From Geminocystis sp. M7585_C2015_104 (GTDB lineage: Bacteria > Cyanobacteriota > Cyanobacteriia > Cyanobacteriales > Cyanobacteriaceae), in the NCBI GenBank assembly GCA_015295805.1, contig DVEF01000001.1:1-64000 (forward strand): a stretch of 64,000 nucleotides of DNA, written 5' to 3'. The position numbers and the translations under genes were made by a program. Positions 31,084-64,000 of this stretch are shown piece by piece; the first letter of the stretch is position 1; each line of letters opens with the position of its first letter. The notes beneath the pieces are model-generated. The model did no database searches. It was not told the DNA's origin and was given only the letters and a program-made list of their open reading frames with translations.

Positions 31084-32400
31084 ATGAAACCTGCCGTCAT
31101 CAGTCGTGTTATCCCCAACTCCATTGCCGCCGAAATTGGTTTTGAGGTGGGAGACAAGATTGTCAGTATTAATGGCGTTAAGCCAAGGGATTTGATTGAC
31201 TACCAATTTTTATGTGCTGACGAATACTTGCAGTTAGAAGTCATAGACAGATGGGGTAACACTCACTTTATAGAGATAGAAAAAGACTATGATGAGGATT
31301 TGGGGCTAGAGTTTGAAACGGCGCTTTTTGATGGTTTAATTCAGTGTAATAATAAGTGTCCTTTTTGTTTTATTGACCAGCAGCCGCCTGGCAAAAGGAA
31401 AACACTCTATCTCAAGGATGATGATTATCGTCTTAGTTTTCTCTATGGTAGCTACTTGACTTTGACCAATTTGACCCCAAAAGAGTGGGAAAGAATTGAG
31501 AAAATGCGTCTTTCTCCTCTTTATGTATCTGTTCATGCTACAGAGCCTGATATAAGGATAAGATTGTTAAAAAATCCTCGGGCAGGAGAGATAAAAAAAC
31601 AAATAGCCTGGTTCGAAGAAAGACGACTACAAATTCACGCCCAAGTCGTAGTTTGTCCTAATATTAATGACGGGCAACACTTAACCACTACTTTGTTAGA
31701 TTTGTTTTCTTTCCACAAAGGAGAAATACCCGCAGTAATTAGTGTAGCAGTTGTGCCGGTGGGGTTGACCAAATTTCGGCCACCAGGAGATGAATTAATA
31801 CCTGTTACCAGGGAAAAAGCAAGGGAAGTCATCCAGCAGGTGCAACAATTACAGATAGAATTTAAGAGAAAATGTGGTTCTAATTTTGCTTGGTTAGCTG
31901 ATGAATGGTTTTTAATTGCCCAAGAAGAATTGCCCCCAGAATCCCATTATGAAGACTATCCGCAAATCGGCAATGGTGTTGGCTCAATTCGACTTTTCCT
32001 CAGGGAGTTTGAAACCATTGCTCGGAAAAGATTGCCCACAAAAATTCCTCAAAAGAAAGAGTTTTTTTGGGTTGTGGGCAATGCAGTAGAAAAGGCCTTC
32101 CAACCCCTGGTAGAAATGTTGAATCGAGTAGAAAATCTACAGGTAGAATTAGTGGCTTTGAATAGCATTTATTGGGGTCAAAAAATTACAGTCACAGGAT
32201 TGCTTACCGGCGAGGATTTATTATTTCATCTGCAGAAGCGTCAGCCTCTAAAAGAGATTATTCTACCCGCAATTATGTTGAAACACGACGAGGATAAATT
32301 CCTGGATGACATGACACTAGGAGAATTACAATCTCGCCTGGGGGTTAAAATTCACCCTGTCAGAGACGTCAATCAGTTTTTTGACGTTTGTCTTGGCTGA
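31084..32400 (+). CDS. PDZ-DUF512 iron-sulphur protein
   Basis: A protein of about 438 residues. It starts with a PDZ-like domain (ISRVIPNSIAAEIGFEVGDKIVSING), then a cysteine cluster CNNKCPFCFIDQQP (C-x3-C-x2-C) like that of radical SAM enzymes, with RKTLYLKDDDYRLSFLYGSY after it, and a DUF512 domain to the end. The family is conserved in cyanobacteria and clostridia; its reaction is unknown, though an iron-sulphur cluster is likely. An in-frame ATG at 31039 would add 15 residues with no family similarity, so 31084 is preferred; no good ribosome binding site supports either. Confidence 0.87.
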   Translation: MKPAVISRVIPNSIAAEIGFEVGDKIVSINGVKPRDLIDYQFLCADEYLQLEVIDRWGNTHFIEIEKDYDEDLGLEFETALFDGLIQCNNKCPFCFIDQQPPGKRKTLYLKDDDYRLSFLYGSYLTLTNLTPKEWERIEKMRLSPLYVSVHATEPDIRIRLLKNPRAGEIKKQIAWFEERRLQIHAQVVVCPNINDGQHLTTTLLDLFSFHKGEIPAVISVAVVPVGLTKFRPPGDELIPVTREKAREVIQQVQQLQIEFKRKCGSNFAWLADEWFLIAQEELPPESHYEDYPQIGNGVGSIRLFLREFETIARKRLPTKIPQKKEFFWVVGNAVEKAFQPLVEMLNRVENLQVELVALNSIYWGQKITVTGLLTGEDLLFHLQKRQPLKEIILPAIMLKHDEDKFLDDMTLGELQSRLGVKIHPVRDVNQFFDVCLG

Positions 32401-32499
32401 CAATCACTTTTACTTTTTCAGACTAGTCATGTTATTTGTCAGCAATTCCGCCTCGCCACTTGGCTTGGTTGATATTGTTTTTTGGCAATTTTGTCTTTT

Positions 32500-35420
32500 C
32501 TGGCGCCGGCTGTTTTTAAACAAGGAAAAAAACCCCCCACCCCTAGACACCCTCCACTAGACACTTTTAGACGTCTCCCAATACACACTACTTAAATTAA
32601 TTCACTTTCCCAGTTGATATCCCCCTGCAACTGTTTCCATTTGCTTCTGGCTTTATATTATGTTTTTCCCCAGTCTAATTTCTCTCTCCTGCTATTTGTT
32701 ATTGTCTACCATTACAAAAAGCTAAAAATCCCCCCCATTATTTTTTCAATTCTACCCCCTTATGATTGCAATGAGCCCTTCACCTACTAGTCTAAATGCC
32801 TTTGTCTGCCGTTTTATTTGTTTTATTCAGACAGGCAAAAAACCACCACCCCGCGGGCGTTTTTCACTGGAGACTTTTAGATACTCTTCATTAGCCCCAT
32901 TGGACATTTTAACTAATTGAACTAATCAGTTTGCCGAGGTGGTAAATTTTGACAACTGTCTCTACCTTCTCCCCCTTACACTATTTTTTTTTTACCCCAT
33001 TACTTCCCTTGTCTTGCCAGTGGTTGCAGGAAAACAAAAAGAAATCCCCCCTGAAAACTCCCTTTATCCATTTTTATGAGTAATAAGGCAAAAACACTAG
33101 TGGAAATAATAATCGGGTTTCGATACTTGTCTTAACTATCAGCAATAATACCCCGATATCCCTTTTGGGCGAGTTATATTGGTTAGTGGTTTTTTCCCTT
33201 GTCTGCCATTGGTAAAAAGGCAAAAAAACACCCCACACCTACCCCAACAACTATTCCAGTTAGGAGTTGGCATTTTAGTTTTACCATGTCTGTATCACCT
33301 GATAATTACTCTTGTTCAGGTTTCTTAAGGTTTATTATGGATTTAGTATGCCACTTCGAGGTGGGCATTGTGGTTTCCTGATGTCTCTGTTGGCTTATGG
33401 CTACTACCAGAGAGGCATTACAGTTACTTTCCCCTGTTGGAAATGAAAAGGCGAAAGACATCCCCTCTCCTCAGCCTTTCCTTGTCTGCTGTTAGTCTGA
33501 TTATCATATTTGCCTTGCCAATATAATTCCTCTCGTCTTTTTAAATCTCTTTTAAACTTTTAAACTAGTAAGAAACACTCCCCATTCGGCAGACATTTTA
33601 ATCGGCATGGCATCTAGTAGAAGTATGGATTAATTGTTTGACGTTGGTATCAATCACCAGTGAAAATGTTTTTTACTACTTATCCCATTCTCCCACACTG
33701 CCCGATTATACCTCTTGTCCTTGTCGGCTGTTGTCGGCTGTGGCAAGCCAACAAAAATTCTCACCTACCTGCTACACATCCTCTAATGGATACTTTTAGA
33801 CATTTCGCCTATGCTTTCTCCAGGCTTTATGCTATTTTTTCGCCGGTTTGATTTCTCTTGCTTTTATGAAATTTTCCTAACCTCCTGACGACTATAATCT
33901 TTCCCAATTCCCTCACCAGACACCTGTCACTAAACAATTTTAGATATTCCCCAAGACAGTTTAATGGGTTTCCCAGTTGCTACCCTCAACAGCCACCCCA
34001 TCCTCCTCAAGCTTTGCTAATACTGTTTTTTCCCTTCTTGCTGTTATTGTCTAACTTTACAAAAAAAGCAAAAAATCCACCCCCTATAAGTCTGCCAACC
34101 TGCTTTTTTTGAAAAATCTCACCAGTCTGATTATAATTTCCCCCATCTGCCTTTTTGGACAGATAAAAACACTGTCCTTTCTTTGTAGATATTTTAGTCA
34201 GTATCACAGTCAAGCCATCTTCTAACAACTGCCTCTATTTCCTTCAGGCATACTATATGTGGTTTCTATTTTCATGACTTCCCCCTGCAGCTAGACAGCC
34301 AGTAGACACTTTTTTTATACTCACATACTCTTATATACTCTAGCGGCTACTTTCCAGTGTCTCTATTGCTTTCAGGTATCAGTCTGACTTTTCCCTGCCT
34401 ACTGTTACTGTCTGCCGTCACAAAAAGGCAAAAAACACACCCAACTCCTTGACAAACGCTATTAGGCAGACTAGAATGGGTCCCCATCTCCCCACCAGCC
34501 GTTGCAGACGAGTAAAAAGACATCACATCCTCCACCATTCGGCAGAAACTCTAGTCAGCATAGCAGGTGAGTGGTGGAGTATGAATCAGCCACTTGACGT
34601 CTGTTTCCACTGTCTGTTAGCTAGTCTTGACTGGGAGTATAACTTTCCTTGTCGGCTTTTGTCAGCCAAAATGTCCCTAATAACTGTTTCCAGTTTGAGG
34701 CTGATTATTCCATGGAAAATCGTATTGCTGGTAAAAATATTTCCCGCAACTGTTTCTCTATTTCGGGAATTTAACTTTCCCTACCACCCGTAGGTAGGAG
34801 AAGTGTCTTTAACAATAATTTCTGGTTTTGGATGATTAGACTATGTTTTTCACCAGTTTAACTGCCTTTGTCTGCCGTCGCCTCCTGGGGGGTGAAGGCT
34901 ATATGGTGTCCGTGTAAGCCTATAGTAAAATTTTTCTAGCAACTTCTACATTTTTCTTGCCAGTTTGACTGCTTCTATCTCCATCTCGGGTGAGAATATT
35001 TCTTACAACCCCTTCTCTGTTTCCATAATTCAACTTCCCCTGCCAACCAATATCGGGATATCTCCTACAACTGTTTCTCTGTTTCGGGAATTTAACCCTC
35101 CTTGCCAGCAGTGGGAATCTATCTGACAACTGTTTCTCTAGGCTGGGTTTCTTTAGGCTGGTTAGACTACGTTTCGTATGTTTTCTTTAGTAGTTTAATC
35201 CTCTTTTCCAGTTTTCAGCTGTCGCCATTGCAGGAAAACAAAGGGAAATATCACCTACCCATCTACCATTTTAAACAAGTCAAAGCCCTCTCACACTTCC
35301 CAACAGGGATGTCTATTTCAACCATCGTGTATCGAATAGTGTCTTTTTTTTAGGCTAGTTGTCTTAGAAGTTAGTGATTTTATACCCCCTGCTAGCTATC
35401 TGTAAAAAGGCAAATTAGTT
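32500..35420 (-). repeat. Tract of degenerate repeats related to the 3' end of the phosphorylase gene
   Basis: About 3 kb without an intact gene, filled with diverged copies of one unit. Block A, read on the minus strand, encodes variants of G-G-x-F-F-A-F followed by a polar stretch. Copies lie near 32500, 32703, 32804, 33011, 33197, 33428, 33719, 34036, 34398, 34496, 34871, 35211 and 35386, with another at 35555 in the partial gene copy. The same signature (GVRMFFAFLRQPV) is near the C-terminus of the intact phosphorylase at 35806-36516. Block B, CATTCGGCAGA...TTTTAGTCAGCATAGCA in type, is clearest at 33584-33660 and 34537-34615. Spacing ranges from about 100 to 375 bases and stops interrupt every copy. 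Confidence 0.65.
34738..35165 (-). repeat. Short-period (about 60 bp) subrepeats within the degenerate tract
   Basis: Units beginning CAACTGTTTCTCTGTTTCGG-like occur near 34747, 34935, 35001, 35067 and 35125; the last four are spaced about 60-65 bases. On the minus strand they translate as variants of K-x-N-x-x-x-R-K-I-L, similar to KNSLISLRKLEAVVRKL at the end of the intact phosphorylase. The units are diverged from each other. Confidence 0.6.
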
Positions 35421-61918: not shown

Positions 61919-62875
61919 ATGCGCCTGGAGGAGTTGCTGAAGTCCTATGAAAAGGGGGAAAGAAATTTCAGCGGGGGGGAATTCTCTTCAGAAGAGATAA
62001 TAGGCCTAAATTTGATAGAAATTGACCTAAGCCGGGCTAACTTACAGTGGGCAAATTTGAGTGGAAGTGACTTGAGTGGTAGCGAATTACTTCAGGCGGA
62101 TTTGAGTAACAGTCGTCTAATTGGCACCAAGATGATTGGGGCAAATTTGACAAATGCCAATATTACCAATTCAGACTTGAGCTGGGCAAATTTGAGCAGT
62201 GCAAACCTCTCAAGGGCAGACTTAAGTCACAGTAATTTAAACAATTCCTCCTTGATAAATAGCGATTTTAGTTATGCTAAATTGAAAAATTGCAGTTTTA
62301 AGAATGCAAATTTGAGTGGAGCAAATTTCACAAGAGCAGACTTGTCCGGCGCGAATTTAGAAGGGTTAGATTTAACAGGCGCAGACTTCACACAAGCAGA
62401 TTTATCTGGAGCAAATCTCCAAGGTTGCGATCTATCAGAAGCCAAATTAAACAGGGCGTGTTTGTCAAAGTGTCACCTAGAAAAGGCAGACTTGAGTCAG
62501 GCGACATTGCAGGGAGTAAACCTGGAAAAGGCTAACCTACAAGGGGCCGATTTTAGGGGAATAATCCTGAAAAATACATACCAGAGCGAAGTAAAAATTT
62601 CCAAAGTAACGGTGAAAATTAGCAAGAAAAAAATACTGTTTGTCGCAGCCCTAATGCAAGAAGTTAACCTGAAAAATTCCAAAATCAGAAATGGGATTTT
62701 CGACTTAACCAATCTGACACAGGCTAATCTGGAAGGGGCTATTTTGCAACAAGCAGACTTGACCAGCTCTGATTTATCCTATAGCATCCTTAAAGAGGCA
62801 AATTTCCGTAATAGTCTCCTCAAAGAAGTGGCTTTTGCCGGCGCAACCATGCCAGATGGCAGTGTCCACCCCTAA
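61919..62875 (+). CDS. Pentapeptide-repeat protein
   Basis: A 318-residue protein with about 35 copies of the A(D/N)LSx-type pentapeptide (LSRANLQWANLSGSDLSGSE and ANLSGANFTRADLSGANLEG). These fold into a right-handed square helix. An interruption near 215-245 (KNTYQSEVKISKVTVKIS) breaks the repeats before another run to the end. The first 35 residues are not repetitive. No catalytic domain is fused. Cyanobacteria carry many such proteins, usually of unknown role. Confidence 0.93.
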   Translation: MRLEELLKSYEKGERNFSGGEFSSEEIIGLNLIEIDLSRANLQWANLSGSDLSGSELLQADLSNSRLIGTKMIGANLTNANITNSDLSWANLSSANLSRADLSHSNLNNSSLINSDFSYAKLKNCSFKNANLSGANFTRADLSGANLEGLDLTGADFTQADLSGANLQGCDLSEAKLNRACLSKCHLEKADLSQATLQGVNLEKANLQGADFRGIILKNTYQSEVKISKVTVKISKKKILFVAALMQEVNLKNSKIRNGIFDLTNLTQANLEGAILQQADLTSSDLSYSILKEANFRNSLLKEVAFAGATMPDGSVHP

Positions 62876-63230
62876 AACCAGTAAAAATTCACCTTGGCGG
62901 CGATATTTAATTTAGAAACCGCCCCGGCATAGCTTCAACAGTAAAATGAAGGATAAACCTATGCCAAATACCAGAAAAATACCAAGACAAAATCAGGAAT
63001 AAAAAGAGGTGGCATTGTTGGAGAATAAAAAGAGCCATTTCTAGAGATAATAACAAACAATACCATCGGCATTTAAAGAAAAGTAAACACAAAATCAAAA
63101 CCCCCTATCGCCCCTTACCTTAGACAAAAATTTCCACAACTACTGGCAACAAATAAAAGAAAATCTCCCCACACCTCAGCCATAAATTAAGTTTCTTGTT
63201 TTCTCCCTAGCCCCTGACAAATTTTTCTAA
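62876..63230. other. Intergenic region without recognised gene
   Basis: About 350 bases after the pentapeptide gene. Small frames are present but none has a ribosome binding site plus a familiar sequence. AT content rises toward the promoters that follow. A TGACAAATTTTT element occurs twice (63215 and 63235) just before the first promoter. Confidence 0.4.
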
Positions 63231-63233
63231 CCC

Positions 63234-63262
63234 TTGACAAATTTTTTATTTTTATCTACAAT
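63234..63262 (+). promoter_or_regulatory. Consensus sigma70 promoter 1
   Basis: TTGACA at 63234-63239 and TACAAT at 63257-63262 with a 17-base spacer. This agrees closely with the sigma70 consensus. A preceding copy of TGACAAATTTTT lies about 18 bases upstream. No open reading frame follows. Confidence 0.6.
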
Positions 63263-63268
63263 GAGGTA

Positions 63269-63394
63269 GTAGAATGGGGCGTGGTGTGCGCATGTGAGTC
63301 GAGCCCTTAGGCAGACGGCGCAAATGGCGGCAAAGAAAAACAACTTCAACAGCCTCCTGGAACCGGGGTTGTAGGCCTTTCACGGGAGCTGCCC
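63269..63394 (+). ncRNA. Candidate small RNA, copy 1
   Basis: Downstream of promoter 1, GC-rich sequence in an AT-rich surrounding with TAGAATGGGGCGTGGTGTGC, then GGCGGCAAA and AACCGGGG. The same elements recur in the same order in copy 2, about 160 bases on. No coding frame or known RNA family is recognised. A classical terminator is not seen. Confidence 0.35.
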
Positions 63395-63423
63395 TTGACA
63401 CGGTCCTTGTTTTTGCTTATAAT
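63395..63423 (+). promoter_or_regulatory. Consensus sigma70 promoter 2
   Basis: TTGACA at 63395-63400 and TATAAT at 63418-63423 with a 17-base spacer, a perfect consensus in both boxes. It is 161 bases downstream of promoter 1 and followed by related sequence. Confidence 0.65.
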
Positions 63424-63429
63424 AGTAAT

Positions 63430-63600
63430 TAGAATGGGTGGGGGTGTGCCCATATAGGGTGGGTTCAAGGGGGTGGCGGCAAGACGGTTTCACTCGGCAG
63501 CTAAAAGTCTTAGAAAAGTAACCGGGGAATTCTGCCACTGTCGAAAGTATAACTTCCTTAACGGTTGAAGAGGATTTTCCCCCCCCGACGGTGAAACAGA
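63430..63600 (+). ncRNA. Candidate small RNA, copy 2
   Basis: Begins TAGAATGGGTGGGGGTGTGC, parallel to copy 1, and contains GGCGGCAAGACGG and AACCGGGG further on. The pairing of a perfect promoter with conserved downstream blocks argues for transcription. No reading frame with a ribosome binding site is present on the plus strand; a 94-residue frame on the minus strand (63380-63664) has no translation signals. The 3' end is uncertain. Confidence 0.35.
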
Positions 63601-63664
63601 AGAGGATTAACGGCCTCCTATCACAAGGCATTGGCATCCCAATTAATGGCGTAGTCAGTGGCAT

Positions 63665-64000
63665 TGCCAGCAGGGGAAAGGAGGGAAGGGGAAAGACTTT
63701 TGATTTGTCAAAAGCAGTAGGTATTCATGTTGACGGCTTGTTGGCAGGATAGTCAGGCGAAGACATTGTTTGAGATTTATGCAAGAGAATGTTTGCTAAC
63801 ACTGAATTATCTACTTGAGAGTATTCCACTAACTTGGAAAAGATACACCCATCGAGTTTTTAATTGGATGGGAGTATAGGGGGATTAGTGGTTTATACAG
63901 CGATACGACTGGTTGACTAATAACGGTTGTCTGGCAGGCTAGTTATACTGATGCTGTTGCCAACAACCAGCCGCGGGGGTAAAGAAAATAATACTGGTTT
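63665..64000. other. Right-end region without recognised gene
   Basis: About 335 bases. Short frames only. GTTGTCTGGCAGGCTAGTTATAC near 63926 faintly recalls elements of the repeat tract at 32.5-35.4 kb in the opposite orientation, but I do not consider the match proven. Confidence 0.3.

Follow-up and report, generated by a model that had tools for sequence, protein, structure and literature searches.

Stable RNA operons have tandem promoters, as in the P1/P2 pair of rRNA operons. Among cyanobacterial RNAs, the actuatons of Synechocystis 6803 and 6714 are sRNAs that also make up the 5′ portion of the mRNA of a gene lying downstream (PMC5386190), and Yfr1 and Yfr2 (Cyano-1) are short sRNAs with strong promoters, Yfr2 often being present in several copies (PMC5386190; PMC6778093). 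The locus considered here, near the end of a 64-kb window (the whole stretch of DNA that was analyzed), carries two promoter motifs in line that face a gene-free island (Table 1). We read them, at about even chances, as tandem SigA-type promoters of one transcription unit, whose long product would be either a non-coding RNA or a very long leader.

Table 1. Features of the twin-promoter locus and the linker repeat pair; positions are those of the window unless a locus is named.
Feature	Position	Strand	Basis or remark
Pentapeptide-repeat protein, 318 aa; final gene ahead of promoters	61919..62875	+	Pfam Pentapeptide, E 1.7e-68
20-bp direct repeat (CTAGCCCCTGACAAATTTTT / CTAACCCTTGACAAATTTTT)	63207..63246	+	Copy two contains the -35 box of promoter 1
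Promoter 1, TTGACA-N17-TACAAT	63234-63262	+	Motif match
Start-proximal element, copy 1 (TAGAATGGGGCGTGGTGTGCGCAT)	63270-63293	+	Repeat comparison; includes 7-codon frame 63274-63297
TGGCGGCAA, copy 1	63325-63333	+	Alignment of stretches after -10 boxes
Promoter 2, TTGACA-N17-TATAAT (both hexamers equal to consensus)	63395-63423	+	Motif match
Start of gene-free island	63424..64000 within the window; continues to contig end at 64840	+	ORF and island comparison
Start-proximal element, copy 2 (TAGAATGGGTGGGGGTGTGCCCAT)	63430-63453	+	Repeat comparison; best conserved copy in sister
TGGCGGCAA, copy 2	63474-63482	+	Alignment of stretches after -10 boxes
Third conserved islet (AACAGAAGAGGATTAACGGC / AACAGAARAGGATTAACGGC)	63595-63614	+	19/20 identical in sister
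Linker repeat pair, inverted	L082 1-280 and 4856-5135 (G000:C23)		Sequence comparison

The pattern TTGACA-N17-TAYAAT matches the 64-kb window at two places only, both strands counted, and these are promoters 1 and 2, which lie 161 bp apart from start to start; in 100 shuffles of the window the mean number of matches was 0.05, and none of the shuffles had two. The coordinates and the shuffle count thus confirm what the earlier note had described: two promoters with TTGACA, a 17-base spacer and TACAAT or TATAAT, 161 bases apart. Third among the window's promoter matches comes TTGACA-N17-TAGAAT at 34449, which has upstream of it 1.9 kb (32398-34343) with no ORF of 130 codons or more.

The genus is represented by two genomes, and conservation therefore rests on one comparison, with a MAG that we call the sister (G001; its contig agrees in position with JAUQQP010000043.1, from the MAG Cyanobacteriota bacterium SRBZ.bins.94.201705). 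The sister locus has the same EamA transporter and pentapeptide genes (88% and 94% protein identity), followed in the same place after the pentapeptide gene by TTGACA-N17-TATGCT and then TTGACA-N17-TAAAAT, 90 bp apart, so close that the first -10 box is separated from the second promoter by only about 60 nt. Promoter 1 agrees with its counterpart (L061 3107-3135) at 24 of 29 positions and promoter 2 with its own (L061 3197-3225) at 21 of 29; the former, whose -10 box is weaker in the sister, lies within the best conserved stretch of an interval with a mean identity of 50%. The second start region (AGAAWGGGTGGG..GTGTGCCC..GTGGCGGC) scores 46 against the sister versus 21 for shuffles, none of 500 equaling it, and the first shows a weaker likeness (5/500 as good). 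The 20-bp direct repeat was not seen at the sister locus, and the bodies of the putative RNAs are not conserved between the two genomes.

Beyond the genus no trace of the element was found in 38 other genomes: a 376-nt query returned chance-level matches only, and the promoter-plus-GAAWGGG pattern had no match elsewhere in the family. In the relatives examined, the pentapeptide gene is immediately followed by different genes. The five scattered matches to that pattern elsewhere in the order are about as many as a reversed control gave, and neither the IMG/VR pattern scan nor plasmid blastn found a match. Within its own genome the pattern has two more matches (G000:C15 and C61), both unlike the pair, and the whole element has no further copy.

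What the promoters face is DNA devoid of genes. The source genome has none after them as far as the contig end (at least 1.4 kb), and in the sister the 6.6 kb that remain before the contig ends are gene-free as well, 5.9 kb of them past the second promoter region. Tandem arrays (100 bp x 4 and 80 bp x 3) occur in the sister island along with many degenerate repeats. There is no period-3 coding signal in the island, and the minus strand of the sister island has 299 stop codons, versus 302 in shuffles; stop counts and absent period 3 together rule out coding on either island strand, save for a recent 298-codon frame, that of the inverted linker copy in contig C23. Minus-strand translations give fragments of the PDNKS/SGKTI type, broken across frames. 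On the plus strand no terminator-like site was found in 62000-64000 or 62870-64840, although a 3′ end could be Rho-like or processed, and the sole plus-strand site of this kind in the sister lies 5.5 kb downstream.

Comparable islands exist at other loci of both genomes. One (G000:C37:24019-30577; L131 11020-17578) is a 6.5-kb gene-free, purine-rich island with degenerate repeats beside a gene that we take, from its sequence, to be hypF-like; the sister has gene-free islands of 2.7 and 1.5 kb (G001:C11; L132 8701-11430 and 13262-14736) with 81-bp and 64/132-bp tandem arrays. At the edges of the G000:C37 and G001:C11 islands a strict scan for promoters detected no pair, and twin promoters are therefore not general to such islands.

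The final 358 nt of the promoters' contig (C1) overlap contig C23 at 98%; C23 begins with 191 nt that do not agree with C1. Followed in the promoters' direction, C23 holds further gene-free DNA and then a tamB-like gene, a name taken from the protein layout with no curated match behind it: the N part is DUF748-like, just below the Pfam cut-off, and the C part is at the end of contig C44. Outside the overlap, the end of C1, C23 and the sister island are alike on the same strand (z 7.5, 12.9 and 6.9, the last two being the likeness of the C1-end and C23 parts to the sister island), which supports the order pentapeptide gene, twin promoters, island, tamB. The island thus very probably leads via C23 to the tamB-like gene, in the same direction, and promoter 2 would stand about 3 kb from the start of that gene; this distance runs through the C1-C23 join, which we infer from an overlap of 98%, not 100%, plus the island similarity. 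Neither the N nor the C part of the tamB-like gene was found in the sister bin, which is rated 99% complete, and there the gene was presumably lost to repeat-broken assembly beside the island.

On the reading as one transcription unit, vegetative (SigA-type) promoters, whose activity we infer, would start transcripts near 63269 and 63430, and both starts would read into the several-kb gene-free island, very probably towards the tamB-like gene. The product, if it is as long as we suppose, would come with two alternative 5′ ends, be it a non-coding RNA or a very long leader; stable short 5′ fragments could arise from it, and the likeness between the start regions, 24 nt long, would reflect a duplicated promoter-plus-start region rather than a duplicated folded RNA gene. 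In favor of a long transcript, the promoters are kept at the orthologous site despite the change in spacing from 161 to 90 bp and surroundings that are only about 50% identical. Against it, a long RNA that is not translated usually ends early, through Rho-like or other termination; against read-through, and with it any presumed effect on tamB, the tamB-like gene may have its own promoter. What is observed is the promoters, their conservation in the sister, the gene-free island and the absence of terminators. A long transcript with tandem starts accounts more simply than two small-RNA genes would for conserved promoters with duplicated start regions, unlike bodies, and the lack of a terminator or Rfam family.

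Two tandem related small-RNA genes were what the earlier note had proposed, and we regard this as possible but doubtful. Each promoter would then drive its own RNA of about 100-130 nt, the two sharing 5′ AGAATGGG..GTGTGC and TGGCGGCAA. Each copy does have its own promoter motif, and consensus promoters are typical of abundant RNAs. The shared elements that had been claimed to follow both promoters in the same order are also there: the start-proximal copies are identical at 20 of 24 positions (83%), TGGCGGCAA is common to both, and AACCGGGG occurs twice (63361-63368 and 63520-63527). Aligned with each other, the sequences that follow the two -10 boxes score 36.5 (shuffle mean 22.6; 9/500 shuffles equal it); minus the first 24 nt, they score 19.0 (shuffle mean 19.9; 273/500). 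With the likeness falling to chance in this way, what is genuinely shared comes down to the first 24 nt and a single 9-mer (TGGCGGCAA), and the copies are not alike over their whole length, nor are the two bodies within the sister (413/500 shuffles as good). The start region of copy 2 is well kept in the sister, which speaks for an RNA gene, but no terminator follows either copy and neither folds better than dinucleotide shuffles (z for the window copies from +0.84 to -0.62, the sequences being too few for covariation). Rfam 15 covariance models recognized no known RNA family here: in the promoter region none reached the gathering score, and with E up to 10 allowed all matches were senseless; they had none in the fetched island DNA, and elsewhere in the window only a tRNA. 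The duplicated small-RNA gene is thus weakly supported: strong promoters with duplicated start regions stand, and unlike bodies with no terminator, no folding beyond that of shuffles, no Rfam family and no match in relatives count against it. Conservation in close relatives, on which the earlier note had made its proposal depend, is half there, since both promoters and the start regions (above all the second) are kept in the one sister.

Alternatively, the promoters could be those of a since-decayed gene, with the island as its debris and the promoters slowly disappearing, which we think unlikely. The island does read as broken minus-strand peptide fragments, rich in S/P/D/N and akin to the linker of the tamB-like protein, and the weaker -10 box of promoter 1 in the sister would fit slow loss. 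This debris, however, is on the strand opposite the promoters and therefore never was the promoters' gene, and decay leaves unexplained why the part of the interval that has changed least should be the one with promoter 1.

In relatives, the two parts of the tamB-like protein are separated by a hypervariable S/P/N/D-rich linker that in some is a near-perfect tandem repeat, as in G005 and G010 (L117 and L116; DNSKEKSTSPVVSISS and SNSQEKSVSSSPSL), in which the peptide unit and copy number vary between species. Upstream of the tamB-like gene, C23 carries an inverted copy of the linker's beginning that agrees with it at 74% over 286 bp and without a difference in the last 106 nt. On the strand opposite the promoters this copy has an open frame of 298 codons, which runs off the contig. 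Taken with the broken minus-strand fragments, this gives the islands, in part at least, the look of inverted linker repeats that have decayed. The identical 106 nt suggest, if only weakly, a recent exchange between linker and inverted copy: they lie at the contig end, and an assembly broken by a repeat always stops in sequence that is shared. A diversity-generating retroelement, considered because of the repeat pair, seems unlikely, as A positions hold no excess of the substitutions between the copies.

An island that stores inverted linker cassettes and exchanges them with the tamB-like gene by gene conversion, twin-promoter transcription either aiding the exchange or yielding RNA complementary to the linker mRNA, seems to us improbable. 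The inverted copy, its retained open frame and the hypervariable linker all argue for such exchange, whereas most of the island is out of frame, the shared 106 nt are what a broken assembly would leave, and no tamB-like gene was found in the sister bin; tamB, moreover, is not known as one of the genes that such variation usually affects. Fainter still is the chance that all of this belongs together, a strong promoter pair transcribing a multi-kb, fast-evolving island that exchanges inverted linker cassettes with the tamB-like gene, as an unrecognized cassette/antisense-RNA system for an envelope protein.

The statement in the earlier note that no reading frame is present holds for anything long and fails for short frames: each copy has a 7-codon ATG frame, 4 nt into the repeat (MGRGVRM then stop in the first; MGGGVPI then stop in the second, at 63434-63457), directly after both expected transcription starts and not retained in the sister. 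That these frames are translated leader peptides of an attenuation-type device is hardly credible: ATGGG stands a few nt past the expected start in both copies and in sister copy 1, but ATG has become AAG in sister copy 2, the frame of sister copy 1 has a different length, and there is neither a Shine-Dalgarno sequence nor a terminator hairpin after them.

If the promoters are active, this cyanobacterium devotes strong transcription to kilobases of non-coding DNA whose sequence is hardly recognizable from one sister species to the next, while the promoters are kept. Such a locus would offer a clean test case for long bacterial non-coding transcription as an act (read-through, opening of the locus) versus as a source of an RNA product, and the inverted linker copy beside the hypervariable tamB-like gene gives a testable lead on linker diversification.

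Of the systems described at the outset, the rRNA P1/P2 arrangement resembles this locus in having two consensus promoters in line, here with the start region duplicated; unlike there, nothing downstream of the twin promoters is an rRNA, a tRNA or another RNA of known kind. Yfr2 (Cyano-1) and Yfr1 differ in another way, as this locus has no Rfam match at gathering score and no meaningful one at E up to 10. The nearest described arrangement appears to be the actuaton of Synechocystis. Actuatons are defined by RNA evidence (a discrete abundant sRNA together with a read-through mRNA, for a gene with no start of its own). The gene here would lie some 3 kb off, past the putative contig join, and could be served by a separate promoter; the locus would share with actuatons a strong promoter, a non-coding first part and a sense gene further down, with no terminator between.
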